Below are positions 8,119 through 50,698 of a stretch of 64,000 nucleotides of DNA, piece after piece. The position numbers were made by a program, and so were the translations under genes. Position 1 is the first letter of the stretch. Each line of letters starts with the position of its first letter. The notes under the pieces are model-generated. The model was not told the DNA's origin. It did no database searches and saw nothing but the letters and a program-made list of their open reading frames with translations. The DNA is from Paucibacter sp. KCTC 42545 (GTDB taxonomy: Bacteria > Pseudomonadota > Gammaproteobacteria > Burkholderiales > Burkholderiaceae_C): contig NZ_CP013692.1 of NCBI RefSeq assembly GCF_001477625.1, positions 4,836,001-4,900,000 on the forward strand, given 5' to 3'.

Positions 8119-8177
8119 TGACCTGCACCCTCCCAGCCGTACCAGCGTAATGGAGAGGAAGTCCATCAACCAGGAGA

Positions 8178-8453
8178 ATGATGGACATGAAGAAGAGCAG
8201 ATTTACTGAGGAACAAATCATTGGGTTCCTGAAGCAGGCCGAGGCCGGCATGCCGATCAAGGAGCTGTGCCGGCAAGGCGGCTTCAGCGACGCCACGTTC
8301 TACAAGTGGCGGGCCAAGTACGGCGGCATGCAGGCCACGGATGCCAAGCGACTGCGCGAGCTCGAAGGCGAGAACGCCAAGCTCAAGCGCCTGCTGGCAG
8401 AGGCCCACCTGGACATCCACGCGCTCAAGGACGTCTTCGGCGTAAAGCCCTAG
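8178..8453 (+). CDS. IS3-family OrfA (copy A)
   Basis: 91 residues: helix-turn-helix HTH_Tnp_1 (SRFTEEQIIGFLKQAEAG, CRQGGFSDATFYKWRAKYGGM) followed by a leucine-zipper-like helix. OrfB follows in the -1 frame, and a full transposase is expected from a programmed -1 frameshift just before the TAG at 8451 (near a GTAAAG run). Confidence 0.9.
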   Translation: MMDMKKSRFTEEQIIGFLKQAEAGMPIKELCRQGGFSDATFYKWRAKYGGMQATDAKRLRELEGENAKLKRLLAEAHLDIHALKDVFGVKP

Positions 8454-9313
8454 CCCCGCAGGTCAGGCGCGACGCGGCGACCCAGATGATTGCCCAGCAC
8501 CATCTGTCCGAACGCCGCGCGTGCCGCCTGGTGGGGCTCTCCAGAGACAGCTATCGCAACCCGCCCGTGGTCGATGAGGCCACGCAGCAACTCAGCGCCA
8601 AGATCGTCGAGATCGCACAGGTGCGGCGCCGCTTCGGCTATCGCCGCATCCATGACGTGCTGCGCCCACAGTTCCCAGGCGTCAATCACAAGCGCGTCTA
8701 TCGGTTGTACAGCCAGGCGCAGTTGGCGGTGCGCAAGCGCAAGAAGATCAGACGGGCAGCCAGCGAGCGCGTGCCGCTCACCGTGCCGACCCGAGTCAAT
8801 GAGGTGTGGAGCATGGACTTCGTTTCCGACAGCCTGGCCAATGGCCGGCGTATCAAGTGCCTGACTGTGGCCGACGACTTCACGCACGAGTGTGTGGACA
8901 TCGCCGTGGACTACGGCATCTCGGGCCAGTACGTGACGCGGTTGCTGGACCGGGCCGCGATCTTCAGGGGCTACCCTGCGGCGGTGAGAACCGACAACGG
9001 GCCGGAGTTCACCTGCCGGGCCTTCATCGCTTGGGCGCAAGCTCACGACGTGCGGCACATCCTCATCCAGCCAGGGCGGCCCATGCAGAACGGCTACATC
9101 GAGAGCTTCAACGGCAAGTTCCGCGACGAGTGCTTGAACGAGCACTGGTTCCAGACGCTGCCGCAGGCGCGCTCGGAGATCGCCATCTGGCGGCAGGACT
9201 ACAACGAGGTGAGGCCGCACAGCAGCCTGGGTCGGATACCGCCGGCCGAGTTCGCGCAGCGCCACCGCACCAAGAACCAGGCGCCACCGGCTACACGCAA
9301 CGAGATCAAGTAA
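8450..9313 (+). CDS. IS3-family OrfB, DDE integrase (copy A)
   Basis: About 287 codons; an internal ATG lies at 8486, but expression by frameshift from OrfA is more likely. It carries the HTH_21 region (RRRFGYRRIHDVL) and the rve core with WSMDFVSD, RTDNGPEF and the ESFNGKFRDECLNEHWF glutamate motif, then RPHSSLG. The reading frame is intact and its translation is the same as that of copy B. Confidence 0.9.
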   Translation, partial: LAPQVRRDAATQMIAQHHLSERRACRLVGLSRDSYRNPPVVDEATQQLSAKIVEIAQVRRRFGYRRIHDVLRPQFPGVNHKRVYRLYSQAQLAVRKRKKIRRAASERVPLTVPTRVNEVWSMDFVSDSLANGRRIKCLTVADDFTHECVDIAVDYGISGQYVTRLLDRAAIFRGYPAAVRTDNGPEFTCRAFIAWAQAHDVRHILIQPGRPMQNGYIESFNGKFRDECLNEHWFQTLPQARSEIAIWRQDYNEVRPHSSLGRIPPAEFAQRHRTKNQAPPATRNEIK

Positions 9314-9363
9314 CCTTCAACCCGGACTTCCGCATGGCTGGTACGGCGGGAGGGGGCAGGTCA

Positions 9364-11306: not shown

Positions 11307-11639
11307 ATGATTGACCATATTGAAGAAGCGCCCATCGTTGCGCAACGTCCGCAGCCCGACGTGGCCGAGCAGCAGCAATATGCTGAAGCTACCGCTATCA
11401 GCTTGGAGCGCCTGATTGACCGTCTCAAGAATGACTCAGAGTTTTCGAAGTCACTGGCTGAGCACCCCAAGTCCACCTTAGGCGAAGCCGGTATCGTCCT
11501 TCATAAGGAAGGTATGGAATTCCTGATGGAATTCCATCCGGAGCGCTTTGATCGACTCTCTGCTGAATTGTTCGAAATGATGGACCCGTCCTTCATCGCA
11601 TGCATGGATGAGCCATCCTGTTCGGTCGGCAATAAGTAA
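11307..11639 (+). CDS. Putative RiPP precursor peptide with nitrile-hydratase-like leader
   Basis: 110 residues from the ATG at 11307, chosen over an in-frame start at 11238 because of the GAAAGGA ribosome site and because the leader begins there. The region around residues 33-60 (LERLIDRLKNDSEFSKSL then AEHPKSTLGEAGIVL) follows the NHLP pattern in which a helix is followed by a dPxxxLxexGi turn. The C-terminal tail holds the only two cysteines (FIACMDEPSCSVGNK), a plausible core. Separated from the enzymes by a hairpin at 11707, as is common where precursor must exceed enzyme. No obvious GG cleavage site. The assignment is inferred from leader pattern and context. Confidence 0.6.
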   Translation: MIDHIEEAPIVAQRPQPDVAEQQQYAEATAISLERLIDRLKNDSEFSKSLAEHPKSTLGEAGIVLHKEGMEFLMEFHPERFDRLSAELFEMMDPSFIACMDEPSCSVGNK

Positions 11640-11706
11640 TGCCTTGATTGCTTTGCATTGCCGCGTTAGTTTCTGGATTTAACCGCGGCCTGCAATATTG
11701 ATCGCG

Positions 11707-11742
11707 GGACGCGGTCAGTAATTCAACCGCGTCCTGTTTCTC
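11707..11742 (+). terminator. Hairpin attenuator between precursor and biosynthetic genes
   Basis: Perfect 9-bp stem GGACGCGGT (11707-11715) with ACCGCGTCC (11726-11734), 10-nt loop, followed by TGTTTCT. It lies 68 bp after the precursor stop and 60 bp before the next start on the same strand, so a leaky terminator is likely. Confidence 0.6.
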
Positions 11743-11794
11743 GCCTCATCTCGTATCAATATCCCAGCCACTTTCCCGCTTATCGCTGCTCTTT

Positions 11795-13171
11795 ATGTCA
11801 AAAATTCTGCTGATCAATCTGTCAAGCTTGCCGATGCCGGGTAACGAACCGATTTACCCCATCGGCGTACGCTGCATACAGCAGGCTCTCGACTTGGCCG
11901 GGCATCGCACCCTGGTCGTAGATTTCGTGGAAACTCCCCAGGCATTCGACGATTTGACTTGGGCGAGCGGCGATTGGGACGTGATTGGTTTTGCTATCAG
12001 AAACATCGATCCAATCGGCCTTGCCCGGGAAGGGCATATTGACGACTATCTGCGCTTTACCAACCGCGTCAAGGCTGTCGCCAACCCGAATGCAGTGTTG
12101 GTCGGCGGCGGCCCCGGCTACAGCCTTTTTGCCGACAGTCTTACTGAACTGCTGGGCCTACATGTTGGAGTACGCGGCCCCGGTGAGACAGTCATGCTGG
12201 AAATAGCCAATGACCCCGGTCGCTACAAACTTGGCCCTCAAGTAATTGATGGTCAACGTTATGAAGGATTTATCACCGAGCCACTAACGCACCAGCCCAA
12301 TCTAGTTCGCGTTTACGCGAATGATCGTCTTTCGATGATCGGTGTGGAAACGCGACGCAAAACTTGCTTCCAACGCTGCGTCTATTGCCCATACGCATAT
12401 ATAACTGGTCAGAACTCGGGTGATCTGAAACCCCTCGAATTGTTGCGCGCGGAGATCTCTGGAATTTACGATGCAGGCTTCCGAAGAATATTCTTCACCG
12501 ACGGAATTTTTAATAGTGGAATCACCTTCGCAAAACAAATCGTGCGCATGCTGACCGAACAGCGCTGGCCAGGCTTGACTTGGTCGGCCTATTTCGCGGC
12601 AAGACCATTCGACGAAGAGTTCGCGGAGCTGTTGCGTTATAGCGGCGTTGAGTCAGTGGTTGTATCGCCAGACAGCCTTGATGGAGGCCTAATGGAGCGG
12701 CTCGGCAAAAATTTCGATTTGGCCGCGATGGATAAATTCGTCGAAATATGCCGCCGCCATAGTCTTCGCATGTCTGTGAACGTAGTTTTTGGCGGCCCGG
12801 ACGAGAGTCGTGAAACAGTTGCAAACACGGCCCGTTATATCAACGAGAAACTCGCATCCGACGAGCTTTCGATGCATGTCGGGTACCGCATTCTGCCGCA
12901 TACCTCGTTGTCTGCTGAGACCGGCCTCAACGAGAAAGATCTGCTCTACCCGACATTCTATCCCTTCGATCCAGATTTATTCAAATGGGCCAACTCCGAC
13001 TTGGATAAGCGTTTCATGACCAATTCCCGCATGCTCAATCTTTTGGCCGGAAGAGCCTCATTGCTGCGTATGGCCAAAATAACGCAGCCGCAGTCTCAAA
13101 ACCAAAACGCTTGTGGAGCTAAGGTTATTGCCTTCAGTCGAGCGCCCGTCCCCACCAAGGTTGGTAGTTAA
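11795..13171 (+). CDS. B12-binding-domain radical SAM enzyme
   Basis: 458 residues. The N-terminal third has the Rossmann-like layout of B12-binding radical SAM proteins (ILLINLSSLP, YPIGVRCIQQAL, VLVGGGPGYS) but lacks a DxHxxG motif, as in many of the class that bind cobalamin base-off without histidine. The [4Fe-4S] site is C191-x3-C195-x2-C198 (TCFQRCVYC). Members methylate unactivated carbons or rearrange rings, often on peptides. First enzyme of the operon, 6 bp before the GNAT gene. The substrate is unknown; the precursor at 11307 is the natural candidate. It could also act on a small acid later loaded on the carrier protein. Confidence 0.85.
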   Translation: MSKILLINLSSLPMPGNEPIYPIGVRCIQQALDLAGHRTLVVDFVETPQAFDDLTWASGDWDVIGFAIRNIDPIGLAREGHIDDYLRFTNRVKAVANPNAVLVGGGPGYSLFADSLTELLGLHVGVRGPGETVMLEIANDPGRYKLGPQVIDGQRYEGFITEPLTHQPNLVRVYANDRLSMIGVETRRKTCFQRCVYCPYAYITGQNSGDLKPLELLRAEISGIYDAGFRRIFFTDGIFNSGITFAKQIVRMLTEQRWPGLTWSAYFAARPFDEEFAELLRYSGVESVVVSPDSLDGGLMERLGKNFDLAAMDKFVEICRRHSLRMSVNVVFGGPDESRETVANTARYINEKLASDELSMHVGYRILPHTSLSAETGLNEKDLLYPTFYPFDPDLFKWANSDLDKRFMTNSRMLNLLAGRASLLRMAKITQPQSQNQNACGAKVIAFSRAPVPTKVGS

Positions 13172-13176
13172 GATAA

Positions 13177-13950
13177 ATGGACGTAATACGCATATTAGGT
13201 CCAGCTGACTTGGATCTGTTGAACGAGTTTCTAGGGGCAGAAAGTCTGCCGCGAGAAAGTCTTGCACGCGAATTGGCTCAACCCGACACGTACATATGGA
13301 TAGGTTTGCTGGAGGACGGCCGACAGGCTCTTTCTGGCGTTCATCGAGGCATGAAGATCGGAGGCTTCCTCCTGCTCAAGGGCGTCACGATCGATCGACG
13401 ACTGACGGGCACTACTGCCGCCTTACGATTGGCACAAGCCATTTCCCAAACTGCGCGGCACCGTGGCTGGACGGGAGTTTCTGTATGGGTGGAACCAGCC
13501 AAGCGTGAGCGCTTCCTCGCTGCCCGGTTGCAGATTCGCGCCGCCGGAACGCGGGTTCATAGATACCATATTTCGCTGAAAAATTGTGCAGCAGAACTTG
13601 CGGATGCGCCCGGCGCGCCTCTGAGCGGCACCCTTGAGATCGCGCTTGGTACGGCACAGCCGCTCGTCGGCAGCCTCCTGCCGCTACCTGAGCACTGCTA
13701 TGGATGGGTATGCGACGGGCGCCGCATTGTGCTTGCTGGGAATCCGTGCGTCACTCTGGACGATCTGCCGACATTGAAAGACAGACTCGCGCCCGTTGCC
13801 AGGCGCATCGGCGCCACGGCTCTTGAGTTGCAAGTGCCGGCGGCGGATTTCGCGGCATCGCTGAGTCTGCTCGCGATTGGTGCCAAGCGGTTGAGCCGCA
13901 CGCCTGTGCAACTCGGACATCGTCGATTCGATCCGGAGGCCCCTCTATGA
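13177..13950 (+). CDS. GNAT-like acyltransferase
   Basis: 257 residues. N-terminal region ends in a GNAT-type beta-strand and helix (GGFLLLKGVTIDRRLTG, TTAALRLAQAISQTARHRGW) followed by VSVWVEP, consistent with an acyl-donor-binding GNAT fold; the C-terminal half may be a second, degenerate GNAT lobe. GNAT maturases that attach acyl groups to NHLP- or Nif11-led peptides are known (selidamide-type pathways), which fits this operon. Overlaps the next gene by 4 bp. The acyl donor could be the carrier-protein-bound group made downstream. Confidence 0.6.
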   Translation: MDVIRILGPADLDLLNEFLGAESLPRESLARELAQPDTYIWIGLLEDGRQALSGVHRGMKIGGFLLLKGVTIDRRLTGTTAALRLAQAISQTARHRGWTGVSVWVEPAKRERFLAARLQIRAAGTRVHRYHISLKNCAAELADAPGAPLSGTLEIALGTAQPLVGSLLPLPEHCYGWVCDGRRIVLAGNPCVTLDDLPTLKDRLAPVARRIGATALELQVPAADFAASLSLLAIGAKRLSRTPVQLGHRRFDPEAPL

Positions 13951-15188
13951 CGAGTGACGCGCAAAGGATCCGCCGGCTTTGCCTGAGCGGAACCGCATCG
14001 GAAGCCTGCGCTGCGCTGCAGTCGGAAGGCTTGGAACTGGATCAAGTTTTGGCCAGTCTAGCCGCTCCGCAGCCGCCGGTGGAGCCAGGGACCCGGTCCA
14101 TCGAACTGGTCGCTCCTAATGGTGACCGCTCCGAAATGACGATATTCGTCCCGCCGCTTCCACCGAGTGGACGGCTAGGTGCGCTGATCTTTTTACATGG
14201 TTCGGGTTCCAGCGGCGCTGACGTCGCGAAGATGGCAACCACATGGGGCACGTTGAGTGGATGTGCCGTACTGTGTCCGACGGCTGTTACTAGCGTGACC
14301 AACACTAGCAACTTCGAGCTCGCCGGATTATTTGGCTCACGTGTACGCCACGCGCGTTGGCATTACGGGCAGCAAGACCTACCGATGACAGCGCTTCGCT
14401 GGGCACTGCAGAACCTCGACGTCGATCCCGATCGATGCGCCATAGCGGGTCATTCGATGGGTGCCATTGCCGCATGGAACATTGCCGCGCGCCACTGGGA
14501 GTCTTTCGCCGCACTCCTTTCGATCAATGGCGCACTGTCGGTATGGGAGCGCTTCGGGCCTGACATGGCAGCGGCTCAGCTACAGGCAAACCTACTGCCA
14601 GTCGCAATCCGCTCATTGAACGGAACGTTGGACCAAAAGGTGCCGCCGGAGTTAGCTGCGTCGACCATCGAGCGTTTGCGAACGGCCGGCCATTTCGCGG
14701 CACGGCAGATCCTGGTGGAGTACGGCGACCACCCGATGCAAACCATGAATCTGATGCCGGGCTCAACTCATTACGACGCTCTGGGTCTGTGGCTCGGTAA
14801 GCAAAGGCGCGTGGCGTGGCCGACCCTGGTTCGGCATTGCACGGTTGACGCGACGCATGGGCGTGCACATTGGATCGAAGTGAGCAAACGCCGTGAGCCC
14901 CGTGGTGCTGGGGTCGTGGTGGCGCAAGTGGTTGCACCTGACGCCATTGAGATCCAAGCCCGTGGCGTTGCCCGGCTAACTCTAAACCTGAGCCGAAAGC
15001 TGGTTCGCCCTGGAGCGCTCTTAGTGAGCGTCAATGGGGTTGCCCGGCATGTGGAATTTGAGCCCACCTTGGCGTCGGTCGTGCTGTCTTACCGTAGCAC
15101 CCTGGATGCCGGACTGATATTTGAACAAGCCGTATCCCTCGAAATCACCGAGGACTGCATTCAGCCATTAATTGGAGCAAACGCATGA
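13947..15188 (+). CDS. Alpha/beta hydrolase (PHB-depolymerase/esterase-like)
   Basis: 413 residues. LIFLHGSGSSG gives the oxyanion-hole strand, GHSMGAIAAWN the nucleophile elbow Ser, and a late His (GDHPMQTMN region) is a candidate catalytic base; the last 100 residues form a beta-rich extension with no family I recognise. Resembles polyhydroxybutyrate depolymerase-like esterases. Within the operon it may remove the leader, release a thioester or hydrolyse an ester. Starts inside the previous stop (ATGA) and its stop overlaps the next ATG. Confidence 0.7.
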   Translation: MTSDAQRIRRLCLSGTASEACAALQSEGLELDQVLASLAAPQPPVEPGTRSIELVAPNGDRSEMTIFVPPLPPSGRLGALIFLHGSGSSGADVAKMATTWGTLSGCAVLCPTAVTSVTNTSNFELAGLFGSRVRHARWHYGQQDLPMTALRWALQNLDVDPDRCAIAGHSMGAIAAWNIAARHWESFAALLSINGALSVWERFGPDMAAAQLQANLLPVAIRSLNGTLDQKVPPELAASTIERLRTAGHFAARQILVEYGDHPMQTMNLMPGSTHYDALGLWLGKQRRVAWPTLVRHCTVDATHGRAHWIEVSKRREPRGAGVVVAQVVAPDAIEIQARGVARLTLNLSRKLVRPGALLVSVNGVARHVEFEPTLASVVLSYRSTLDAGLIFEQAVSLEITEDCIQPLIGANA

Positions 15189-16168
15189 CCAACCAACGTG
15201 CCCTTATCGAGGCACTCCGCGCCCGCGGAACGGAACAGCAGAATCTTTTCGCGGCGGCGCGCCAAGCGCGCAAACTCAGTTCAGGAGATGCCATCACATT
15301 ACGTGGTGTCATCGAGGTCACCAACGTTTGCAGGGTGAATTGTGACTACTGCCCGATGCGCAGGGAAAACACTCGCCAAAACGAAAGATTTCAACTCAGC
15401 GAGGACGACATTGTGGAAATGGGCGCTGCCATTGTAGCGGCAGGTATTCGTGTGATTCTCATCCAAGGCGGTGAGACCACTACGCTACTCGCGGTGGTAG
15501 AAGCGGCAGTCCGGCGCCTTATGAAGTTCCACGGCCCCAAACTCGAGATTATTGTTAATCTTGGAAACTTCACATCCAACCAATATCATCGGCTAAGGGA
15601 TGCGGGTGTAAGTAGCTATATTCTCAAGCACGAAACCAGTAATCCTGAGTTATTCCGGCAGCTCCGTCATGAAAGTCTCGAAGAGCGCCTGCGCTGCCTA
15701 CACGATCTCAAGTCGTTGGGCTTTAAGGTTGGTACGGGCCTAATTTCAAGCCTTCCTGGCCAAAGCCTTGAAAGTATCGCTGAGGACATTCGCTTGGCGG
15801 GCAGATTGGGTGTCGACATGTGCAGCGTGAGCCCGTTCATCCCGGCGCCCAATACGCCAATGGAGCATGTACCCAATGGAGATAATGACTTGGCACTAAA
15901 TGCCATCGCCTGTTTGCGAATTCTATATCCTAATATTTTGATCCCGTCGGTAAGTGCTCTTGAACGCACCAGTGTCGGTGGGCAAAGCCGTGGTCTAGAT
16001 GCTGGCGCCAATGTTTTGACAGTTAATTTCACCAAACTTGAGCATCAGCGCAAATACTTGATCTATGGAAAGGACCGCTTTGTGGTGACCACTTCACATG
16101 TGCAGAAAATAGTTGCCGATGCGGGCCTTCATCTTGAACATTCGATCGACGCGACTTTGGCGGCTTGA
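15185..16168 (+). CDS. BioB/HydE-like radical SAM enzyme
   Basis: 327 residues. The C49-x3-C53-x2-C56 cluster motif (CRVNCDYC) follows an IEVTNVC strand, and the TIM-barrel order ILIQGGET, YILKHETSN, VGTGLISSLPGQ and SPFIPAPNTPMEH closely follows the HydE/BioB/PylB group, with a C-terminal BATS-type end. HydE-type proteins act on small molecules such as cysteine-iron adducts or thiazolidines; PylB makes methylornithine. So this enzyme may build an unusual amino or thio acid rather than modify a peptide. No hydrogenase gene is nearby. Translationally coupled on both sides. Confidence 0.8.
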   Translation: MTNQRALIEALRARGTEQQNLFAAARQARKLSSGDAITLRGVIEVTNVCRVNCDYCPMRRENTRQNERFQLSEDDIVEMGAAIVAAGIRVILIQGGETTTLLAVVEAAVRRLMKFHGPKLEIIVNLGNFTSNQYHRLRDAGVSSYILKHETSNPELFRQLRHESLEERLRCLHDLKSLGFKVGTGLISSLPGQSLESIAEDIRLAGRLGVDMCSVSPFIPAPNTPMEHVPNGDNDLALNAIACLRILYPNILIPSVSALERTSVGGQSRGLDAGANVLTVNFTKLEHQRKYLIYGKDRFVVTTSHVQKIVADAGLHLEHSIDATLAA

Positions 16169-16169
16169 T

Positions 16170-17450
16170 ATGACAATGACACCTAATTCCACTGCCGGGC
16201 ACGGTACTGCGACCAGTGCATTTCGACAATTCTGGGCTGCTGACATCGCTCTGAGACTGGGCGGTCGAGCTTGGATGTTGGCGTTACCGGTCATCGCCAT
16301 TGAATTTCTGCAGGCTGACAGCCGCCAAATTGGCTATTTGGCCACCGCATCGACGGCCAGCTATTTGATTCTTGGCCTACCTGCCGGAGCTTGGGTTGAA
16401 CGAATGCGCAAGCGCAATGTGATGCTGTCTACCGCAGTTATCCGCGCGCTTCTACTCTGTAGTATTCCGCTGTTGTGGTGGCTCGGCGGATTATCCTTCT
16501 CATTTCTCCTGGCCGTTACGTTCATGATCGGCTTGGCAAATCTCTTCTATGACACGGCCTACCAATCCTATATCCCCTTGCTGGTCGGCGCAAACAATAC
16601 CTACAAGGCCAACGCTCAAATTGAAACTACTGCGCGCGCCGCGCGAGCGGTCACGCCGGCGCTATTAGGCTGGGCGATGAAGACTATTAGCGCGCCGCTC
16701 TTGCTTCTCATCGATGCATTTGGGCATGTTGTCAGCGCCACCCTGTTACGACGCGTGCCTGAAGTAGAGGAGAAACTGCCTGCGCCATCATCTCGCAATC
16801 TCCGCGCGGAATTGATGGAAGGTTTTCGCTTCATTCGCAATGAGCCGGTGTTGTGGTCGATCGCGCTGGCCATAGTATTTTCCAATTTCTTCGCTACGGC
16901 GATTACGACGCTTATGCCTGTCCTGGTGCTTACCCACCTGAAACTCGGCCCAGGTTCCCTCGGAGTCGTCTACACGGCCGGTGAAATTGGCGGTTTTCTC
17001 GGGGCCTTGCTGCTTACGCCATTACGTAGATATTTCGAGGTCGGGCAAATGCTAGCCGGTGGCCTGCTTCTCGCGGCCGGTTCCACGGCGCTTGTGCCGC
17101 TGGCAATGGGAATGCCAGACTCGTCGCCCAAGTTGGCGCTGGGGATACTGATGCTATCTGTTTTTGGCACGGCAATCGGCGGCGTTACCTTTGCGGTTTC
17201 TCAGATTAGTCTGCGGCAGATGCTCTGCCCTGCTGCGCTTTCAAGCCGGGTAAATGCAACAATGCGGTTCGTTATCTGGGGCACCATGCCGGCGGCAAGC
17301 CTGCTCGCCGGTGCCGGGGCCTATTGGCTTGGAACCATTCCGACACTTTGGCTCGCAGTCGTCGGCACCGTACTGACGGTACTGCCGATCCTCAGCTGCG
17401 CGCGCTACTCGACCCCTCAATCCAACGGCCGAGCACTGGGAGATGGTTAA
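16170..17450 (+). CDS. MFS transporter (probable product exporter)
   Basis: 426 residues from the ATG at 16170, one base after the upstream stop; a longer reading from 16113 would overlap the radical SAM gene by 56 bp. Twelve hydrophobic segments; the loop 2-3 motif is VERMRKRNVM, and the layout (AGAWVERMRKR, ARAVTPALLGW, FVIWGTMPAASLLAGAGAYWLG) matches the MFS_3/enterobactin-exporter (EntS-like) group. Likely exports the cluster product across the inner membrane. Confidence 0.85.
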   Translation: MTMTPNSTAGHGTATSAFRQFWAADIALRLGGRAWMLALPVIAIEFLQADSRQIGYLATASTASYLILGLPAGAWVERMRKRNVMLSTAVIRALLLCSIPLLWWLGGLSFSFLLAVTFMIGLANLFYDTAYQSYIPLLVGANNTYKANAQIETTARAARAVTPALLGWAMKTISAPLLLLIDAFGHVVSATLLRRVPEVEEKLPAPSSRNLRAELMEGFRFIRNEPVLWSIALAIVFSNFFATAITTLMPVLVLTHLKLGPGSLGVVYTAGEIGGFLGALLLTPLRRYFEVGQMLAGGLLLAAGSTALVPLAMGMPDSSPKLALGILMLSVFGTAIGGVTFAVSQISLRQMLCPAALSSRVNATMRFVIWGTMPAASLLAGAGAYWLGTIPTLWLAVVGTVLTVLPILSCARYSTPQSNGRALGDG

Positions 17451-18714
17451 CGCTCGCACGGCTCTGGCGGCCGATCTACTGGCTTCAACTGCCCACCTAA
17501 ACGGAGCACCGCTCCACCGCTCATACGACAAGGCGCGCGAACGCCTCCTAAAGCTCGATGTCGGTGACTTGGACATCGTTGGCGTAGCGAGTCTGTCGCC
17601 AGATCGAACATTGGCCGCGATGGTTGCGGCGTGGTCGCTCGGCGCAGTTGTATGGCCTATGGCTACCCTAGTCAAGGATGGCCCTGCCTCCGTGATTTGG
17701 GACGGGGAGCACCTCACGCGTGTCGCGAAGCCGCCTCTATCCCCTATGAGTAAGGAGCTTGCGATTGTTCACTGCACTTCGGGCTCGACTGGACCCACCA
17801 AGCTCGTTAAACGAAGTGCGGCAAGTCTTCGCGCCGAAGCGCGAGGTTACCGCCACGGATTGGGGCTTCGACCCGGTGACCGTGTTCTGCTCCCTCTGCC
17901 AGTCGTACATTCACTCGGCAGCGGCATCGCGCTCAGTGCGCTGCTCTCCGGATGCGAGTTGCATGTGGACGAAAGGCAACTGCCATCCGCGATCGCCAGT
18001 GCCCTTGACGCAGGTCGGTTCGAGATGGTCGTGGTCACGCCATCAATAGCGCGCCTGCTGGTGAAAACGGTCCGCAATGGCCCCTGTTTGCCGACCCGGT
18101 TTTTTATTGCAGCAGGGTCAACTTCCGACGAACTTAAGCAAGCTGTTCACGCGCGCTTCGGTCTGCCGCCAATCTTTGGCTATGGCTCCACTGAGACCGG
18201 CGGGACATTCATCGGCTTCACCGGAATGGGCTCGGCGATCGAAGGGGTAGAGATATTGGAGCCGGCGTCCGGCATGGAGGGCGAACTTGTACTGCGCCTA
18301 GCGTGTCCACCTCTTGGGTATTTCGATCAAGCCACTCCCGGCACCATCTGGAAGACCGGCGATTTGGTGCGTCGCGACCTGCAGGATGGCTTGCACTACC
18401 TGTGCCGGCAAAGCGAAGCACGGATCCGCATTGACGGGAGGTTCGTTTCAATCGAAGCACCGAACGCCCTGTTGGATGATCTTCCCGAAGTCGTGGAACA
18501 TTGTGCCTTGGTAGTGGCTGACCCCCATCGCCTGGGCGCCGAAACTCTGTATTTCGTCGCCGCCACGACGCGCCTGACGCCCGCTGTCTTGGCCGCGAAG
18601 CTCGCCCGGGTCACCACCCCATCATTTCGAGTTGTCACCTGTGCGAGCCTGCCGCGCAACACCATCGGCAAACTTGACCGCGCAGCCCTTGTCAAATTCG
18701 TAACTTCCCCATGA
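17443..18714 (+). CDS. Adenylate-forming (AMP-binding) enzyme
   Basis: 423 residues, shorter than the usual 500-550. Core motif A3 TSGSTGPTK at 112-120, GYGSTETGG (A5), KTGDLVRR (A7) and a final PRNTIGKLDRAAL (A10 with catalytic Lys) are all present, so the N- and C-subdomains are both complete. Would activate a carboxylic or amino acid as an acyl-AMP and load the carrier protein encoded next (4-bp overlap). The substrate pocket cannot be read with confidence. Confidence 0.85.
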   Translation: MVNARTALAADLLASTAHLNGAPLHRSYDKARERLLKLDVGDLDIVGVASLSPDRTLAAMVAAWSLGAVVWPMATLVKDGPASVIWDGEHLTRVAKPPLSPMSKELAIVHCTSGSTGPTKLVKRSAASLRAEARGYRHGLGLRPGDRVLLPLPVVHSLGSGIALSALLSGCELHVDERQLPSAIASALDAGRFEMVVVTPSIARLLVKTVRNGPCLPTRFFIAAGSTSDELKQAVHARFGLPPIFGYGSTETGGTFIGFTGMGSAIEGVEILEPASGMEGELVLRLACPPLGYFDQATPGTIWKTGDLVRRDLQDGLHYLCRQSEARIRIDGRFVSIEAPNALLDDLPEVVEHCALVVADPHRLGAETLYFVAATTRLTPAVLAAKLARVTTPSFRVVTCASLPRNTIGKLDRAALVKFVTSP

Positions 18715-19763
18715 AACAGCCTGGATCACCACCCTGCGCCCGCGAACTTTATATTGGGATCATTGCATCTCGACTATTTGCTAATCAGTCGGAACAGTAT
18801 GCATCGGCGCGCCCGAGCCTGCCTGAACTGCTCGCAATGCCAAATTTCGAGACATTGAGTTTGAGCGAACTTGGCATTGATTCGCTCACCTGGATGGAGC
18901 TCCTGACTAGCCTCGAAGCCGAATTTGGCATTCAAATTAGTGATGAATTTCTAGCGAAATCGAGCATTTCGGTCGCGAGTCTTGCGACGGCGCTTGAGGA
19001 TTCGTTGGAGCGCGCGCGAGGCTGCCGTAGCAACGCCGAAATTCGCCGCCCTATTTTCGGTCAACGCTACGTAATTATCGACAACTTCTTACCGGTCGAC
19101 TTACTGGCGGAACTTCGCAAATATCTCACCAGTATCGAGTTCAATCGATTTGACAGTGTTGTAGATCCGAGTATCGACGGACCAGCATTTAAATCAAAAG
19201 GATGGCTCTTAAATTCGTTAAATAGGGATATCGGAGCTCCCCTCCAAGCTGCGATGCAGGCACTCGCAGAGGCGGTGCGTTCACATCCGCAAATATACGG
19301 CCGCAGCGAACAGGATTGGACGGAGATGAGCTTCTCGTTTTGGCAGTACGAGGCTGGAACACGCCTTGGGTGGCATAACGACGCCGGGAACGGCCGTACC
19401 GGCGAATACATTATTTATCTCCATGATGAATGGAAGCCCGGCTGGGGTGGTGAATTAATGATACTGGACGAAGCCGCAAACGTTGATTCGGTAGACCTCG
19501 CAAAGAAAACGCAATTTTCGCTGATCGAAGATATTGTCGAGCGGTCGTCCACCAACCTCACCGCGATTCGTCCGCGCCCCAATCGCCTGGTCATGGTGCA
19601 GGCCGGTACTTGCCACTTTATCAATCGCGTGGACGCAAGTGCAGGGGCAATTCGGCGTCTCAGCATGACCGGTTTTGCCGCGCGACCAATAGGCATCGGC
19701 CAAGCGCGTGTGCGATCTGACCGTTTACATAAATTGTTGGATTTGGATAAAAAAACGATCTAA
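18711..19763 (+). CDS. Carrier protein fused to 2-oxoglutarate/Fe(II) oxygenase
   Basis: 350 residues. Residues about 10-100 are an acyl/peptidyl carrier domain with the phosphopantetheine Ser58 in GIDSLTWMELL. From about 118 on is a prolyl-4-hydroxylase-like 2OG oxygenase: H222-x-D224 (WHNDAG), GGELMILD, distal H302 (TCHFINRV) and a following RRLSMTGF arginine for 2-oxoglutarate. The fusion suggests hydroxylation of a group while thioester-bound to its own carrier domain. The adenylating enzyme upstream is the obvious loader. The next gene starts immediately after the stop. Confidence 0.8.
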   Translation: MKQPGSPPCARELYIGIIASRLFANQSEQYASARPSLPELLAMPNFETLSLSELGIDSLTWMELLTSLEAEFGIQISDEFLAKSSISVASLATALEDSLERARGCRSNAEIRRPIFGQRYVIIDNFLPVDLLAELRKYLTSIEFNRFDSVVDPSIDGPAFKSKGWLLNSLNRDIGAPLQAAMQALAEAVRSHPQIYGRSEQDWTEMSFSFWQYEAGTRLGWHNDAGNGRTGEYIIYLHDEWKPGWGGELMILDEAANVDSVDLAKKTQFSLIEDIVERSSTNLTAIRPRPNRLVMVQAGTCHFINRVDASAGAIRRLSMTGFAARPIGIGQARVRSDRLHKLLDLDKKTI

Positions 19764-20564
19764 ATGAAAGCTGGAACTAGTCCTATGGAAGAAACGTCTT
19801 ACCCTGATGTGAATCGCACTGTTATGGAGCGCTGGGCGGTTCGGAATAATATTGAACCGGCACAAATCGAACGTATCTTGGTCGGTCTAAGTGGTTCCAC
19901 GGGCGCGCGCGTCTTGGACGCCACCGCCTACGATCAAAAGCCCACTTTCAGGTTCCCAGACTTGCGCGCCATTCCATTTTGGGATCATGGCGAATTCACT
20001 TGGGCCGCGGCCATTGAAGCTGCCGCGCAACAGATTAGATCGGAGTATTTGGAATTCGTTTCCATGCATGGGCAGCAGCAGCGCAAATCTACGCGTGTTA
20101 GGAAGGGTAACTGGTCCGTCTATCCGCTAACGCGCATTGGTCAATACAACACGGCGATGGGAGCACATTTCCCCCACACTGTCGAAGCACTGCGCCAAGT
20201 GCCGGGCGCTCTGAGTTGCGGCATGACGTACTTCTCGACGATCGCGCCTACCACTCATATTCTTCCGCACTGCGGTTTCACCAATGCCCATCTGCGCTGC
20301 CATCTGACATTGTCTACATCAGAAGGCTGCCGTATCCGCGTAGGCGAACAAGTGCGAACTTGGCAGGATGGCCGACTGATGATTTTTGATGATACTTTTG
20401 AACACGAGGTATGGAACGATTCGGACAATTCGCGCACCGTGTTGTTGTTCGATATTTTTCATCCAGACCTCAGTGTCCTCGAAATGCGCGCCCTCGAGTA
20501 CATGGCCGGTCTCTGGAGGCGTGCTATTTCCGTGCGTGGCTTGGCAAGCCTTGTTGCGGCGTGA
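19764..20564 (+). CDS. Aspartyl/asparaginyl beta-hydroxylase-like oxygenase
   Basis: 266 residues. The core ILPHCGFTNAHLRCHLTL with a downstream FDDTFEHEVWNDSD is the AspH/LpxO signature (metal His residues, 2OG-binding Arg, distal His). Family members hydroxylate Asp/Asn side chains in peptides or lipid A acyl chains. In this operon it could act on the precursor peptide (it has Asp and Asn in its tail) or on the carrier-bound acyl group. Second Fe(II)/2OG enzyme in a row. Confidence 0.8.
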   Translation: MKAGTSPMEETSYPDVNRTVMERWAVRNNIEPAQIERILVGLSGSTGARVLDATAYDQKPTFRFPDLRAIPFWDHGEFTWAAAIEAAAQQIRSEYLEFVSMHGQQQRKSTRVRKGNWSVYPLTRIGQYNTAMGAHFPHTVEALRQVPGALSCGMTYFSTIAPTTHILPHCGFTNAHLRCHLTLSTSEGCRIRVGEQVRTWQDGRLMIFDDTFEHEVWNDSDNSRTVLLFDIFHPDLSVLEMRALEYMAGLWRRAISVRGLASLVAA

Positions 20565-20583
20565 GGGTGCGCCCGTAAGAACT

Positions 20584-21330
20584 ATGACCACCACACCCCC
20601 CCCCCTGGACAGCCTTTCTCATCTGCTTGTATTGGACATTGACGGCACGGTGTTGCGCTCTGCCGCCCCGCACCGGATCATCCTGCAATCTTTGCTGATG
20701 GATGCGGGGCTGATCGAGCAGGAGCTCGATTTTTCGACTTTCAGCGATCGCACCGATACAGGCATCCTGCGGGCGAGTTTCGAGCGTCGCCATGGTCGGA
20801 CGCCCACCCGTAGCGAGCAAGCGAGCTTCGAGCAGGCCATGGCTGCACGGTATGCCGCCCTTGGATCGGTTGACAGCCAAGTGATGCCAGGCGTGCTTGA
20901 CCTGTTGGCTCGGCTGCAGACTAAGCCAAATTGGAACTTTGCATTCGCGACAGGCTGTTGGCGCGAATCCGCCACTAAAAAGTTATCCATCCTCGGCTTA
21001 GCACGGCCGTGCATGAGCACCGCCTCGGAATTCCAGTCGCGACCCGATATTCTTTCTCAAGCGATCGCCTTAGGTTGGCGGGACACCCCGCCAGCGGCAC
21101 GAGGATTGACCGTCTTCGTTGGCGACGGAGTTTGGGACGCGCAGGCCGCTGGCACTGTTGCAATCCCATTCATCGGGATTGCTGAGGGTTCGGCGGCGAC
21201 CGAGCTGATGTGCTTAGGCGCCCACGCTGTCGTACCCGATTTTACTAATTTCTGGCCGATTCTTGAGGATCTGTCGGCGCGCTTGGCGGCGCGCGCGGCT
21301 CGCCAGCCTAAGCTTTGCTCCCCTATCTGA
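20584..21330 (+). CDS. HAD-superfamily hydrolase (phosphatase-like)
   Basis: 248 residues from the ATG at 20584; an earlier in-frame start would run through the preceding gene. Motif I LDIDGTVL, motif II-like AFATGCW, and motif IV VFVGDGVWDAQAA are present, with an alpha-helical cap between. Could remove phosphate from an intermediate or act as a housekeeping nucleotidase. Its stop overlaps the start of the receptor gene (TGATG). Confidence 0.8.
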   Translation: MTTTPPPLDSLSHLLVLDIDGTVLRSAAPHRIILQSLLMDAGLIEQELDFSTFSDRTDTGILRASFERRHGRTPTRSEQASFEQAMAARYAALGSVDSQVMPGVLDLLARLQTKPNWNFAFATGCWRESATKKLSILGLARPCMSTASEFQSRPDILSQAIALGWRDTPPAARGLTVFVGDGVWDAQAAGTVAIPFIGIAEGSAATELMCLGAHAVVPDFTNFWPILEDLSARLAARAARQPKLCSPI

Positions 21331-23549
21331 TGAACAAACCAGTACTACACCAACTTGCTTGGCGCACTTGTTTGCTCACTGCCGTGATACCCATTGCGAT
21401 ACGAGCCCAAGAGATTCCACAGAATGATGGCATCGGGCGCGCAGCCGGCACCAAATTAGAACGAGTCGAAGTCAACTCGCGTGCCCTTTCCGACGTCGAG
21501 TTGCGCAGGCAGTCGAAAATTGCCAAGCAGTACTTCGGCCGCGAAGAGCTCGACAAGTATGGTGACACGACGCTGCCAGACCTCTTCAAACGACTTCCCG
21601 GCATCGATGTGCAGAACGGCTCGCCCACACTCCGGGGCCTTTCAGCGCGCTATACGCAAGTTCTGATCAACGGCGAACCCGCGCCTCCCGGATTTTCGCT
21701 GGATCAAATGAGCCCAGCGCTGGTAGAACGCATCGAAATTGCTAGAACGGCCGTCGCCGATCAGAGTACACAAGCGGTGGCCGGTACTATCAATATCATT
21801 CTGAAAGAGGCGCCTAGTCGTGCACAGAATGATTTGCGAGCAACCGTCGAATATTATGCCGAGCATCCAACTACCGGCTTCAACTATGTCTGGGGGCAGC
21901 GCAAGGGCGGCCTGTCGGCTACCCTGCCGCTCGCCTATTTCGAATGGCATGGTATCCAAAATATTCGCAACGAGCGCATTATGGAAGGCCTGGATGGGAA
22001 TCCTTCCCACGCCGTGCAACGCGGTCAAGCTGGGTTCGGCGGCTGGTTCATCACCGCCGCACCGCGCCTCAACTGGAAGCTAAATGACGATGAAACGATT
22101 GGGCTGAATTCCTACCTAAGGAGAATCGCATCCTACAGCCACAGTAGCTATGCGAATCTGATTCTGGCTGGTCTTCCAAGCCTAGAAGACGATTCGGTGG
22201 GAAGCGGCGAGGGCAATACGGTCAACCTGAACATGAGTTGGAACAAGGTATTCACTTCCGAGCGCAAACTCGAGTTGAAGATGGGCGGCCTACAGACCCA
22301 CAGTGCGTCTCAGTCTAGTACTTTCTACCGCGATACGTCGACTAATGAGTTGAGGCCCCAGCGCCTGAGCCTAGGAGATGTCCACGAACGTGGACTTTCT
22401 CAGTCCGGTAAGCTCGTGGAACTCGCTGGAGACGCGCATACGGTTAGCATGGGATGGGACTTCGATCAACGCCGTCGGGAGGAGCGCCGCACCGTCACTG
22501 AACGCGGCATACTGCAAACCGACAGTCTCGAAGGCGAGTCGTTTGCTGCCACGTTGACGCGCGGCGCAGTTTACGTGCAAGACGAATGGGAGATCGCGCC
22601 ATTTTGGTCGGCCTATTACGGCCTACGTTGGGAGCAGATCCGAACAAACAGCGTCCTTGAGGTGTCCACCGCGCCCGTGCGCAACACCAGCGCGGTTCTG
22701 TCTCCGCTGTTAACTTTGAACTATGCCCTTGACGCAAAGAAACGCGACATCGTGCGTCTGAGCTTGGCACGCACCTACAAGGCTCCCGAGCTGAATCAGT
22801 TGTTGGCCCGGCCTATCATTAATGGTCTTTTCCCCGACATAACAATCAGTAACACCGAGCTCGCGCCGGACAGGGTTGGCAATTCGGCCTTGCGCCCCGA
22901 ACTGGCGACCGGTTTGGACATAGCCTTTGAGAAGTACTTATCCGGAAGTGCATTTTTGAGTATTGGCTATTTCCAGCGTGAGATCCGGGACCTGATTAGG
23001 AACGTGACCACGCGAATGGATGTGCCTTATGCCAAGGTACCCCGTTGGATTGCGGTTCCGCAAAACTTTTCCAAGGCACAGACGAGTGGGCTGGAGGTTG
23101 AGGTCAAAGGACGCGCCGGTGATCTGATTCCCTCTCTCATCGACGCAAAGGCGCCGTTGAACGTCCGCTCTGCCTTGAATCTGTATTGGTCAAAAGTCGA
23201 TGCGGTGCAACTACCCAACAGTCGCTTGGAGAATCAGCAACCCTGGTCGGCGCTGCTAAGCGTTGACTATCGCTGGCAGCAAGTGCCGTTGCACGCTGGA
23301 GCCACACTCACTTATCGGCCAGGATATGCCGCGCAAGCTACGCCGACGACCTTGTACACAACCAACCTCTCACGTGGGTTTGACCTCTTCGCCGCCTGGA
23401 CCATCAACGCAAGCAGTACCTTGAGGTTCAACGCCCGCAATATTGCCCCAGTCGAGACAGTGACGGCTACCTATCTACCTGATGGATTTCAGCAGTCGGC
23501 GCGATTGCCCAGCACAATTTACGGACTTTCGATCGAGCTGAAGCTTTAG
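21330..23549 (+). CDS. TonB-dependent outer-membrane receptor
   Basis: 739 residues from the ATG at 21330 (overlaps the HAD stop; a TTG 15 bp earlier is possible). Signal peptide to about residue 26, then a plug domain (LPDLFKRLPGIDVQNG, LRGLSARYTQVLINGEP, VERIEIARTAVADQST, VAGTINIILKE) and a beta barrel ending in SIELKL. Being last in the biosynthetic operon, it may re-import the product (metallophore-like) or act in self-recognition. Substrate unknown. Confidence 0.9.
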   Translation: MNKPVLHQLAWRTCLLTAVIPIAIRAQEIPQNDGIGRAAGTKLERVEVNSRALSDVELRRQSKIAKQYFGREELDKYGDTTLPDLFKRLPGIDVQNGSPTLRGLSARYTQVLINGEPAPPGFSLDQMSPALVERIEIARTAVADQSTQAVAGTINIILKEAPSRAQNDLRATVEYYAEHPTTGFNYVWGQRKGGLSATLPLAYFEWHGIQNIRNERIMEGLDGNPSHAVQRGQAGFGGWFITAAPRLNWKLNDDETIGLNSYLRRIASYSHSSYANLILAGLPSLEDDSVGSGEGNTVNLNMSWNKVFTSERKLELKMGGLQTHSASQSSTFYRDTSTNELRPQRLSLGDVHERGLSQSGKLVELAGDAHTVSMGWDFDQRRREERRTVTERGILQTDSLEGESFAATLTRGAVYVQDEWEIAPFWSAYYGLRWEQIRTNSVLEVSTAPVRNTSAVLSPLLTLNYALDAKKRDIVRLSLARTYKAPELNQLLARPIINGLFPDITISNTELAPDRVGNSALRPELATGLDIAFEKYLSGSAFLSIGYFQREIRDLIRNVTTRMDVPYAKVPRWIAVPQNFSKAQTSGLEVEVKGRAGDLIPSLIDAKAPLNVRSALNLYWSKVDAVQLPNSRLENQQPWSALLSVDYRWQQVPLHAGATLTYRPGYAAQATPTTLYTTNLSRGFDLFAAWTINASSTLRFNARNIAPVETVTATYLPDGFQQSARLPSTIYGLSIELKL

Positions 23550-24772: not shown

Positions 24773-24822
24773 TGACCTGCCCCCTCCCGCCGTACCAGCC
24801 ATGCGGAAGTCCGGGTTGAAGG

Positions 24823-25686
24823 TTACTTGATCTCGTTGCGTGTAGCCGGTGGCGCCTGGTTCTTGGTGCGGTGGCGCTGCGCGAACTCGGCCGGCGGTAT
24901 CCGACCCAGGCTGCTGTGCGGCCTCACCTCGTTGTAGTCCTGCCGCCAGATGGCGATCTCCGAGCGCGCCTGCGGCAGCGTCTGGAACCAGTGCTCGTTC
25001 AAGCACTCGTCGCGGAACTTGCCGTTGAAGCTCTCGATGTAGCCGTTCTGCATGGGCCGCCCTGGCTGGATGAGGATGTGCCGCACGTCGTGAGCTTGCG
25101 CCCAAGCGATGAAGGCCCGGCAGGTGAACTCCGGCCCGTTGTCGGTTCTCACCGCCGCAGGGTAGCCCCTGAAGATCGCGGCCCGGTCCAGCAACCGCGT
25201 CACGTACTGGCCCGAGATGCCGTAGTCCACGGCGATGTCCACACACTCGTGCGTGAAGTCGTCGGCCACAGTCAGGCACTTGATACGCCGGCCATTGGCC
25301 AGGCTGTCGGAAACGAAGTCCATGCTCCACACCTCATTGACTCGGGTCGGCACGGTGAGCGGCACGCGCTCGCTGGCTGCCCGTCTGATCTTCTTGCGCT
25401 TGCGCACCGCCAACTGCGCCTGGCTGTACAACCGATAGACGCGCTTGTGATTGACGCCTGGGAACTGTGGGCGCAGCACGTCATGGATGCGGCGATAGCC
25501 GAAGCGGCGCCGCACCTGTGCGATCTCGACGATCTTGGCGCTGAGTTGCTGCGTGGCCTCATCGACCACGGGCGGGTTGCGATAGCTGTCTCTGGAGAGC
25601 CCCACCAGGCGGCACGCGCGGCGTTCGGACAGATGGTGCTGGGCAATCATCTGGGTCGCCGCGTCGCGCCTGACCTGCGGGGCTAG
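24823..25686 (-). CDS. IS3-family OrfB, DDE integrase (copy B)
   Basis: Translation identical to the copy A OrfB, with the same WSMDFVSD, RTDNGPEF and ESFNGKFRDECL catalytic segments and intact frame. Expected to be made by -1 frameshifting from OrfA. Confidence 0.9.
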   Translation of the reverse strand, partial: LAPQVRRDAATQMIAQHHLSERRACRLVGLSRDSYRNPPVVDEATQQLSAKIVEIAQVRRRFGYRRIHDVLRPQFPGVNHKRVYRLYSQAQLAVRKRKKIRRAASERVPLTVPTRVNEVWSMDFVSDSLANGRRIKCLTVADDFTHECVDIAVDYGISGQYVTRLLDRAAIFRGYPAAVRTDNGPEFTCRAFIAWAQAHDVRHILIQPGRPMQNGYIESFNGKFRDECLNEHWFQTLPQARSEIAIWRQDYNEVRPHSSLGRIPPAEFAQRHRTKNQAPPATRNEIK

Positions 25687-25958
25687 GGCTTTACGCCGAA
25701 GACGTCCTTGAGCGCGTGGATGTCCAGGTGGGCCTCTGCCAGCAGGCGCTTGAGCTTGGCGTTCTCGCCTTCGAGCTCGCGCAGTCGCTTGGCATCCGTG
25801 GCCTGCATGCCGCCGTACTTGGCCCGCCACTTGTAGAACGTGGCGTCGCTGAAGCCGCCTTGCCGGCACAGCTCCTTGATCGGCATGCCGGCCTCGGCCT
25901 GCTTCAGGAACCCAATGATTTGTTCCTCAGTAAATCTGCTCTTCTTCATGTCCATCAT
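25683..25958 (-). CDS. IS3-family OrfA (copy B)
   Basis: 91 residues identical to copy A OrfA: helix-turn-helix followed by a zipper-like helix, overlapping OrfB in the -1 frame. Confidence 0.9.
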   Translation of the reverse strand: MMDMKKSRFTEEQIIGFLKQAEAGMPIKELCRQGGFSDATFYKWRAKYGGMQATDAKRLRELEGENAKLKRLLAEAHLDIHALKDVFGVKP

Positions 25959-26017
25959 TCTCCTGGTTGATGGACTTCCTCTCCATTACGCTGGTACGGC
26001 TGGGAGGGTGCAGGTCA

Positions 26018-27861: not shown

Positions 27862-29412
27862 ATGCCCACTCCCAGGATTCACATGCGCCAACTTCGACAA
27901 ACCCTTCGACTTCACCTTGAATCTGGCCTGAGCATGCGCGAGTGTTCGCGCGTGCTTGGCATCGCCAAGTCGACCGTCAATAGCGTCGTTATGAAGGCCC
28001 GCGCCGCCGGTGTGGACTGGGCCGCCGCCCAGACGCTGGACGATGCCGCCTTGGAGGCTCGCTTGTACGGCCCCGCTGTGCCTCGGTCCAGCACCCAGCT
28101 TGAGCCCGACTTCGCCCTCGTCCACCAGGAACTCAAGCGCCCCGGCGTCACCTTGCAATTGCTCTGGGAGGAGTACCAGCGCGGTCTGACCGACGCCGGC
28201 TCGCAAGCCTACAAGTACACCAGCTTCTGCGTGAAGTACCGCGCCTGGGTCACCGGCCTCAAGCGCTCGATGCGCCAGGTCCACCCGGCCGGCGAGCGCC
28301 TGTTCATTGACTACGCCGGCCAGACTGTGCCCTTGGTGGACGCTGCCACCGGCGAGATCCGGCAAGCGCAGATCTTCGTGGCCGTCCTCGGCGCCTCGAA
28401 CTACACCTTCGCCTGCGCCACGCCGACACAGACAGCAGCCGACTGGGTCGGCGCCATCATGGATGCGCTGGAGTTCATGGGTGGCGTGCCCCGGCTGATC
28501 GTGCCGGATCAGGCGCGCGCCCTGATCGCCCGGCCCGACCGCTACGAGGCCACGCCTAGCCGTCTGGTCGAAGAGTTCTGCGACCACTACGACGTGGCGA
28601 TGCTGCCCGCGCGTCCTGCTCATCCCCGCGACAAGCCCAAGGTGGAGGTCGGCGTGCAAATCGTCGAGCGTTGGATTCTGGCGCGGCTGCGGCACCGGCG
28701 CTTCTTCACCCTGGCTGAGCTCAACGCCGCTGTCCGGGAGTTGCTGGTGGACCTGAACGCTCGGCCGTTCAAGAAGCTACCCGGCTGTCGGGCCAGCGCC
28801 TTCGCGGCCTTGGATCGGCCGCTGCTCAAACCCCTGCCGGCAGCGCGCATGCCCATCGCCCGCTTCAAGCGCGCCCGGGTCAATATTGACTATCACGTTG
28901 AACTCGATGGCCATTACTACAGCGTGCCGCACCGGCTGGTGCGCGAGCAGGTCGAGTTGCGCATCACTTCGACCACGGTGGAGATTCTGGCGGGCCAGCA
29001 ACGCGTGGCCGTGCACGCCTACAGCGTCCGGCGCGGGGCGCACACGACGGCGCCCGAGCACATGCCGGCCTCCCACCGGGCGCACCGAGAGTGGACCCCA
29101 GCCAAGCTCATCGCTTGGGGTGAGCACATCGGCGTGGCCACAGCCGCCGTGGTGCGCTGGCAGATGGAACACCGGCCGCACCCCGAGCAAGGCTACCGCT
29201 CCTGCCTCGGCCTGCAAAGCCTGGCGCGCCAGTTCGGCCACGAGCGGCTGGAAGCGGCCTGCGTTCGCGCCATGTCGATTCGCTCGCCGACCTACCAAAG
29301 CGTCAAGTCGATCCTGGCCACCGGCTTGGACCGGCAAGCCGCGCCGGCCCAAGCCACGCAGGCCGCACTCCCGCTGCATGACAACGTGCGCGGCCCCGAT
29401 TACTACCACTGA
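27862..29412 (+). CDS. istA: IS21 transposase IstA (#1)
   Basis: 516 residues. N-terminal helix-turn-helix ([20 protein letters not shown]), rve core with [19 protein letters not shown] and [10 protein letters not shown], then the C-terminal beta domain ([17 protein letters not shown]). Full length and intact. The product DNA-binding/integrase partner of IstB. Confidence 0.93.

Positions 29413-45304: not shown

Positions 45305-45306
<2 letters not shown>
45269..45306 (+). terminator. Rho-independent terminator of PEP-CTERM gene
   Basis: TGGCCCGC (45269-45276) pairs with GCGGGCCA (45292-45299), followed by seven T. The metH stop on the other strand overlaps the T run. Confidence 0.85.
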
Positions 45307-48043
<2,737 letters not shown>

Positions 48044-48267
48044 GGCGGACCTCAAGAGACGGTGGGCCGCAAACTCACCGCGGCCCAAAGGATAGGGATT
48101 CGGTGAGCGTCGTTGCTGGGCGCCTGCGGCACCCTTGTCCAAGCCTGGCAAACCCTTGACGGTTTGTCGCAACGCTCCTTGAACCAGGGCGCGATTTTAC
48201 GCACAGGCATGGGCTTGAATCGCGGCCCATTCAAGCCGCCGCGCCAGATGCCGACAAAATAGCGTGC

Positions 48268-50621: not shown

Positions 50622-50698
50622 GCCCGCATTGTAGGAAGGCGGCGAAGGCACCGGGGCGAGGGCACCCGAAAGCCATCCCAGCGCCACCCCGAAGCCAT

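Follow-up and report, generated by a model that had tools for sequence, protein, structure and literature searches.

Gene content of the operon

The window analysed here, a stretch of 64,000 nucleotides from Paucibacter sp. KCTC 42545 (contig NZ_CP013692.1, positions 4,836,001 to 4,900,000), carries at positions 11307-23549 eleven open reading frames (ORFs) that apparently encode a real, conserved and hitherto undescribed hybrid between a pathway for a ribosomally synthesized and post-translationally modified peptide (RiPP) and carrier-protein chemistry. All eleven frames are open, tightly packed and on the + strand, with neighbouring genes overlapping or lying no more than 19 bases apart, so that the co-directional arrangement described in a first-pass annotation of this DNA is borne out. 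The sole exception is a 155-base gap 3' of the first gene (11640-11794, +), which contains a GC-rich hairpin; this hairpin is not among the sites returned by a terminator scan.

The first gene (11307-11639, +) encodes a precursor-like peptide of 110 amino acids with a leader related to the nitrile-hydratase-like leader (NHLP) clan and a tail containing P103-S104-C105. Its mechanical ORF begins at 11238, and the ATG at 11307 is preceded by AAAGGAAATTC. Beyond the gap lie, all on the + strand, genes for a B12-binding radical S-adenosylmethionine (SAM) enzyme (11795-13171), a GNAT-like acyltransferase of 257 amino acids (13177-13950), an α/β-hydrolase of the esterase or polyhydroxybutyrate-depolymerase-like kind with a C-terminal extension (13947-15188), a HydE-like radical SAM enzyme of the HydE/PylB/BioB type (15185-16168), a predicted major facilitator superfamily (MFS) exporter (16170-17450) and a compact adenylating (AMP-binding) enzyme, here termed the AMP ligase (17443-18714). 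These are followed by an acyl carrier protein (ACP; PP-binding, with its Ser in GIDSL) fused to an iron/2-oxoglutarate (Fe/2OG) oxygenase of PF13640 (2OG-FeII_Oxy_3; 18711-19763), a second Fe/2OG oxygenase of the Asp_Arg_Hydrox type (19764-20564), a HAD-family hydrolase/phosphatase (20584-21330) and a TonB-dependent receptor (21330-23549). For the MFS, HAD and receptor genes the start is a chosen ATG, the mechanical ORFs beginning further upstream. The families listed in the first-pass annotation are all present, but its list had omitted the α/β-hydrolase and the HAD protein.

The cluster is conserved but rare

A collection of 84,980 species, each represented by a single genome, was scanned with an alignment of the fusion-type oxygenase, which returned 22 loci. 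Thirteen of them (L002-L014) hold the cluster, namely those of Burkholderia sp. Bp9142 and of 12 actinobacteria (six Streptomyces, one Streptacidiphilus, one Nocardia, three Amycolatopsis and one Actinomadura), while the remaining nine (L015-L023) match the oxygenase only and were left out of the cluster counts. A fourteenth, divergent cluster (L054) came from a search of 298 genomes with a HydE profile. The counts given below refer to these 14 related clusters, the Paucibacter locus excluded, and their number is a lower bound, the scan having depended on two oxygenase peptide patterns and being blind to clusters without that oxygenase. One cluster is counted on an assumption: the contig of L011 starts within the HydE-like gene, and another contig of the same genome (L055) holds the precursor, B12 enzyme, GNAT, α/β-hydrolase and the initial portion of a HydE-like gene, so the two were taken as one.

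We found that the precursor, the GNAT, the HydE-like enzyme, the AMP ligase, the ACP and the fusion-type oxygenase are each present in 14/14 clusters, although the presence of the oxygenase in the 13 scan loci is by construction, because it was the scan query. The B12 radical SAM enzyme and the α/β-hydrolase each occur in 13 of the 14, and the MFS exporter in 12, on the opposite strand in L006. The Asp_Arg_Hydrox protein is likewise found in 12, the other two (L004 and L012) having a second homologue of the fusion-type oxygenase. HAD and TonB receptor genes are absent from all 14 related clusters; the conserved unit is therefore one of nine genes, 11307-20564, and this absence speaks against the HAD protein and the receptor being pathway members. 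The gene set is not a chance grouping, since its order and composition are repeated in other genomes, including those of a second phylum. The precursor profile gave exactly one match in each of 13 genomes searched, so that the expected association of the small protein with these enzymes was found throughout, as was the joint encoding of ribosomal-type and carrier-type genes (14/14 clusters). Because it is co-conserved with the enzymes in 14 clusters and its Pro-Ser-Cys motif is invariant in 16 copies, the small protein belongs to the pathway.

Around this core, the clusters vary. In Streptomyces sp. WMMB 322 (L009) the precursor gene is preceded by those for the AMP ligase and ACP, and in L054 a gene for an aminopeptidase P-type M24 protein follows the oxygenase. 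Among the accessory genes are those for a methyltransferase (L003, L004, L012) and an O-methyltransferase (L003, L009). Since the tailoring genes differ between strains, the clusters are likely to yield a family of related products. We also observed that in Amycolatopsis dendrobii (L006, 10480-12375) a second B12-binding radical SAM gene adjoins the cluster.

Profile searches of further genomes, in which part of each genome's first-look candidates were scored, indicate rarity. Among 391 genomes of the order that includes Streptomyces, three matched the precursor profile, two of them known and one weak (E 6.3e-4). With the HydE-like profile at E<=1e-50, matches were obtained in 2 of these 391 genomes (both known), 4 of 298 (one known), 1 of 345 (known) and 4 of 399 (one known, the other three at E 3e-62 to 3e-51). 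Against a plasmid collection, the B12 enzyme had no match at E<=1e-20, and the HydE-like enzyme matched 10 records at <60% identity, four of them annotated hydE; in the one plasmid context examined (Bradyrhizobium), no precursor was annotated. Used as sole query in a search of 5.8 billion proteins, the precursor retrieved only itself among 3 candidates. This lone self-match reflects a limit of exact-word searching, because BLAST and HMM searches of loci and genomes did give homologues.

The small protein carries a leader related to the NHLP clan and an invariant Pro-Ser-Cys

The model NF038399 (Os1348-family NHLP clan) matched all 13 precursors scanned (this locus and 12 homologues) at E<=0.01, whereas against TIGR03793 the precursor of this locus scored 18.9 bits (cut-off 50.9). 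When a precursor profile was compared with the PDB, the single match at E<=0.1 was 6lk7, an 85-amino-acid chain labelled 'Nitrile hydratase, alpha chain' (E 0.0045), which we take to be the Os17 leader. From these sequence matches the leader is judged to be related to the NHLP clan, in agreement with the initial suspicion that the operon opens with a leader-peptide-like protein. A gene-encoded precursor with a conserved leader beside modifying enzymes, one of the hallmarks of RiPPs, was found in 14/14 clusters. Leaders of the same clan occur in the Pseudomonas pos (strain Os17) and pfl precursors, but those clusters use HEXXH enzymes (according to excerpts of PMC12636437), whereas the present locus has a tail with Pro-Ser-Cys, a pair of radical SAM enzymes and genes for a ligase and an ACP.

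Pro-Ser-Cys near the end is invariant in 16/16 precursor copies, this locus included. The number of residues that follow is one in five copies, three in four, five in this locus and 13-20 in six; because it varies so much, the tail suggests that residues beyond the Cys are discarded or irrelevant. A double-Gly-type cleavage site was not recognized, no Gly lying within eight residues upstream of the motif in any of the 16 copies. An AlphaFold2 model built from 13 sequences had a mean predicted local distance difference test (pLDDT) score of 78 with helices spanning 19-101. Block means were lower towards the end (66 over residues 91-100, 48 over 101-110), low-confidence values by which the tail is probably disordered. 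Two similar precursors are encoded in L054 (5480-5926 and 6264-6563), with the ends PSCDAF and PSCDIW.

Two radical SAM enzymes, one of them HydE-like

The radical SAM cysteines of both enzymes are preserved: C49, C53 and C56 of the HydE-like enzyme and the CxxxCxxC cysteines C191, C195 and C198 of the B12 enzyme are each invariant in 11/11 aligned sequences. The B12-binding domain of the latter scored 28.1 bits, below its cut-off of 32.1; many B12 radical SAM enzymes C-methylate their substrates. HydE is the closest PDB family of the other enzyme, whose profile scored 244 bits on HydE structures vs 106 on PylB, yet the protein falls below the HydE equivalog cut-off (217.2 vs 254.6 bits). A role in [FeFe]-hydrogenase maturation was rejected, since HydF was found above its cut-off (325.55 bits) in 0/14 cluster genomes. 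Weak partial HydF matches occurred in 9 of these 14 and, among 14 control genomes, in 10, one of which was above the cut-off; we read the weak ones as other GTPases.

Sulfur is the site of HydE adenosylation. Reported substrates are synthon B, a cysteine-iron synthon, and thiazolidines (excerpts of PMC11736057).

A midpoint-rooted FastTree phylogeny of 136 HydE-like proteins (from this locus, 16 loci and 119 of 120 matches listed among 728, with some duplicates) separated a group of 49 (support 0.97) from the other 87. The smaller group holds L004 and L012, which have a precursor, together with L052 and L053, which have none within 20 kb. This locus and the remaining precursor clusters are in the larger group, L054 being placed there without support. 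The 20-kb surroundings of L052 and L053 encode, respectively, an adenylating enzyme with polyketide synthase/condensation genes, and a P450-carrier fusion with condensation-type and adenylating proteins. In L053 (7365-13435) the P450-carrier fusion, HydE-like radical SAM, condensation-type and adenylating proteins are encoded consecutively, with no ribosomal precursor; these genes may form another uncharacterised pathway that employs a HydE-like enzyme.

Predicted acyl activation, hydroxylation and release

The motif P-x-P-x-x-H-S-x-G of the AMP ligase is present in 14/14 aligned sequences. Amino-acid-activating domains carry an Asp at the position of this motif. Judging from the motif, the substrate would be a carboxylic acid and probably no alpha-amino acid; the best PDB match of the enzyme is nevertheless a proline-carrier ligase, through the C-terminal part.

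In the fusion oxygenase (H222-x-D224, H302), the H-x-D is invariant and the second His conserved in 18/18 aligned sequences. ACP and oxygenase reside in one protein at this locus; in P0002 (Burkholderia) and P0006 the same fusion was judged by eye from the alignment. A weak match to WelO5 (E 9e-4) raised a halogenase reading, which was discarded because the Asp of H-x-D is retained. The Asp_Arg_Hydrox protein is conserved around its His residues in 12/12 sequences, and its best NCBIfam models, OlsC and LpxO, were matched below cut-off. Ser, Asp and His of the α/β-hydrolase align in 13/13 sequences; the enzyme is a candidate releasing or leader-processing hydrolase. A defence-system reading was also dropped: nine proteins were scanned (all except the MFS and TonB proteins), and two matched PADLOC incidentally.

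A proposed hybrid pathway and its alternatives

In the pathway that we propose, the NHLP-clan protein would present its invariant Pro-Ser-Cys close to its end, and the AMP ligase, by its family and motif, would activate a carboxylic acid and load it onto the ACP. The ACP-linked Fe/2OG oxygenase, and with it either the AspH/OlsC-like enzyme or another homologue of the ACP-linked one, could then hydroxylate the carrier-bound acid, which the GNAT would move onto the Ser-Cys end of the peptide or onto a released Ser-Cys unit. By family analogy, the HydE-like and B12 radical SAM enzymes may remodel the cysteine or acyl unit; the α/β-hydrolase would release a small product and the MFS pump would export it, and the TonB receptor of this Gram-negative host may re-import it. 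This RiPP/carrier-protein hybrid, which we regard, with some confidence, as the best explanation of the locus, is supported by the joint conservation of the genes across 14 related clusters from two phyla, by the leader homology and the invariant Pro-Ser-Cys, and by the ACP-oxygenase fusion and the residues kept in the oxygenase, AMP ligase and α/β-hydrolase. The M24 gene of L054, which lacks the α/β-hydrolase, the association of NpuN-related GNATs with NHLP or Nif11 precursors and the adenosylation reactions of HydE point the same way. The product of the cluster is probably a small molecule of a hitherto undescribed type. More tentatively, the pathway might represent a new class of ribosomal scaffold biosynthesis, in which a carrier-bound, enzymatically hydroxylated acid is joined to an encoded Ser-Cys on a folded leader and rebuilt by B12 radical and sulfur-centred HydE-type chemistry into a small sulfur compound that is not a peptide. 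We know of no earlier natural-product role for a HydE-family enzyme; if this scaffold proved right, it would be the first.

Other pathways offer partial parallels. In 3-thiaglutamate and peptide-scaffold pathways, a Cys at the peptide end is remodelled and then released as a small molecule. Our model likewise remodels and releases a peptide-end Cys, but here the Cys is gene-encoded, and no peptide aminoacyl-tRNA ligase family was seen among the eleven genes, to which that search was confined. Pearlins, of the same type, are named in the excerpted text of PMC9505594. LysW-type amino-group carrier proteins, which hold substrates and have an EDWGE-type end, resemble the present protein in being small with an invariant end motif as a possible anchor; it differs in having no EDWGE-type end and an NHLP-clan leader instead. 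In the open-access literature, judged by the titles and abstract starts listed and not extending to most subscription journals or to biosynthetic gene cluster databases, we found no characterised cluster with this gene set, in keeping with the first-pass annotation, no match for HydE-like enzymes in natural-product clusters and no paper on the family names Franean1_4349/Os1348.

Several observations weigh against the hybrid pathway. The main one, which opposes simple peptide modification, is that L052 and L053 combine adenylating and HydE-like enzymes with no precursor beside them; the substrate of the HydE-like enzyme may therefore be a unit bound to a carrier, and not the peptide at all. The precursor of this locus scores 38.7 bits against NF038399, just under the cut-off of 40. 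Three components are missing in places: the B12 enzyme from L012, the α/β-hydrolase from L054, and a matching MFS gene from L002 and L054. The GNAT-like protein has no Pfam match and weak PDB matches (best E 0.015, to chain H10 over 31 residues; next E 0.6, to a phosphinothricin-type acetyltransferase), so that its name is only moderately secure. In its structure model (pLDDT 91), strands and helices were read as two alpha/beta GNAT-like halves.

One alternative, which we think unlikely, is that the small protein is a reusable carrier that holds intermediates on the thiol of its invariant Cys while the radical SAM enzymes and the GNAT act on them, until the α/β-hydrolase releases them as a thioesterase. 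A conserved leader-like body that is predicted to be structured, a Cys invariant near the end of otherwise variable tails, and the hydrolase in 13/14 clusters would all suit such a role. However, the leader is homologous to known RiPP leaders, the Pro and Ser are as invariant as the Cys, and an ACP in 14/14 clusters would make a second carrier partly redundant.

Rather less probable is a selidamide-like lipidated RiPP, in which the GNAT attaches a dedicated hydroxy fatty acid to the peptide, the other enzymes serve for tailoring and the product is a lipopeptide that keeps its tail. In excerpts of PMC13060382, GNATs related to the tandem GNAT NpuN co-occur with NHLP or Nif11 precursors, and a tandem GNAT fold is predicted for NpuN. 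Selidamides and nostolysamides share with this locus an NHLP or Nif11 leader and a GNAT, and the two-halved model obtained here agrees with NpuN; the OlsC and LpxO models that best match the second oxygenase describe enzymes working on acyl chains. Selidamide cores carry an acylated Lys or (hydroxy)Orn. A Lys lies a few residues ahead of Pro-Ser-Cys in 8 of the 16 precursor copies, but the other eight, including that of this locus, lack it; no Lys, Arg or Orn is invariant near the motif, and five copies have a single residue after it. In addition, the eleven genes include neither a lanthionine synthetase nor an arginase, whereas a dedicated ligase and ACP are present, and the excerpted text of PMC13060382 and PMC9505594 mentions no ligase, ACP or radical SAM gene for selidamide clusters. 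It is improbable that the precursor-like protein is a regulator or chaperone of enzymes making a purely carrier-protein-based molecule, for although the HydE-like relatives of L052 and L053 stand with an adenylating enzyme and no precursor in their 20-kb stretches, the precursor accompanies the GNAT and oxygenase in 14/14 clusters, its Pro-Ser-Cys is invariant, and L054 has two copies with different last residues, as is often the case for RiPP precursors.

The hybrid pathway would join ribosomal precursors and acyl-carrier loading, logics that are usually separate, in a compact, conserved and rare operon, and would place a HydE-family enzyme outside hydrogenase maturation. Given the invariant Pro-Ser-Cys, a single small substrate protein and a few genes would suffice to test its chemistry directly.

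Genomic setting

The operon has a G+C content of 0.56, vs 0.62 outside, and is flanked by two 100% identical, inverted copies of an IS3-family insertion sequence (IS476/IS1477-like, 1245 bp each; left 8119-9363, +; right 24773-26017, -). Because of the lower G+C and the flanking pair, the operon was probably acquired horizontally. A composite transposon was not demonstrated: the bases beyond the outer ends of the two copies differ, and 9 full-length copies were counted in the host genome, where 40 of 103 candidates were scored and 18 matched. Vertical inheritance within the genus was rejected, as 58 other genomes (17 of the genus) gave matches to the fusion protein in 6, all weak (E 1.2e-4 to 7.6e-4).

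Elsewhere in the window, methionine synthase is apparently split into two genes (45305-48172 and 49566-50687, -), one with the pterin, B12 and activation domains and the other resembling, by eye, the homocysteine-binding N-terminal part. An S-adenosylhomocysteine riboswitch (48098-48186, -) lies at the start of the former. A long ORF (27862-29412) contains a predicted tRNA-Ala(agc) (29149-29230, -), possibly a false positive.

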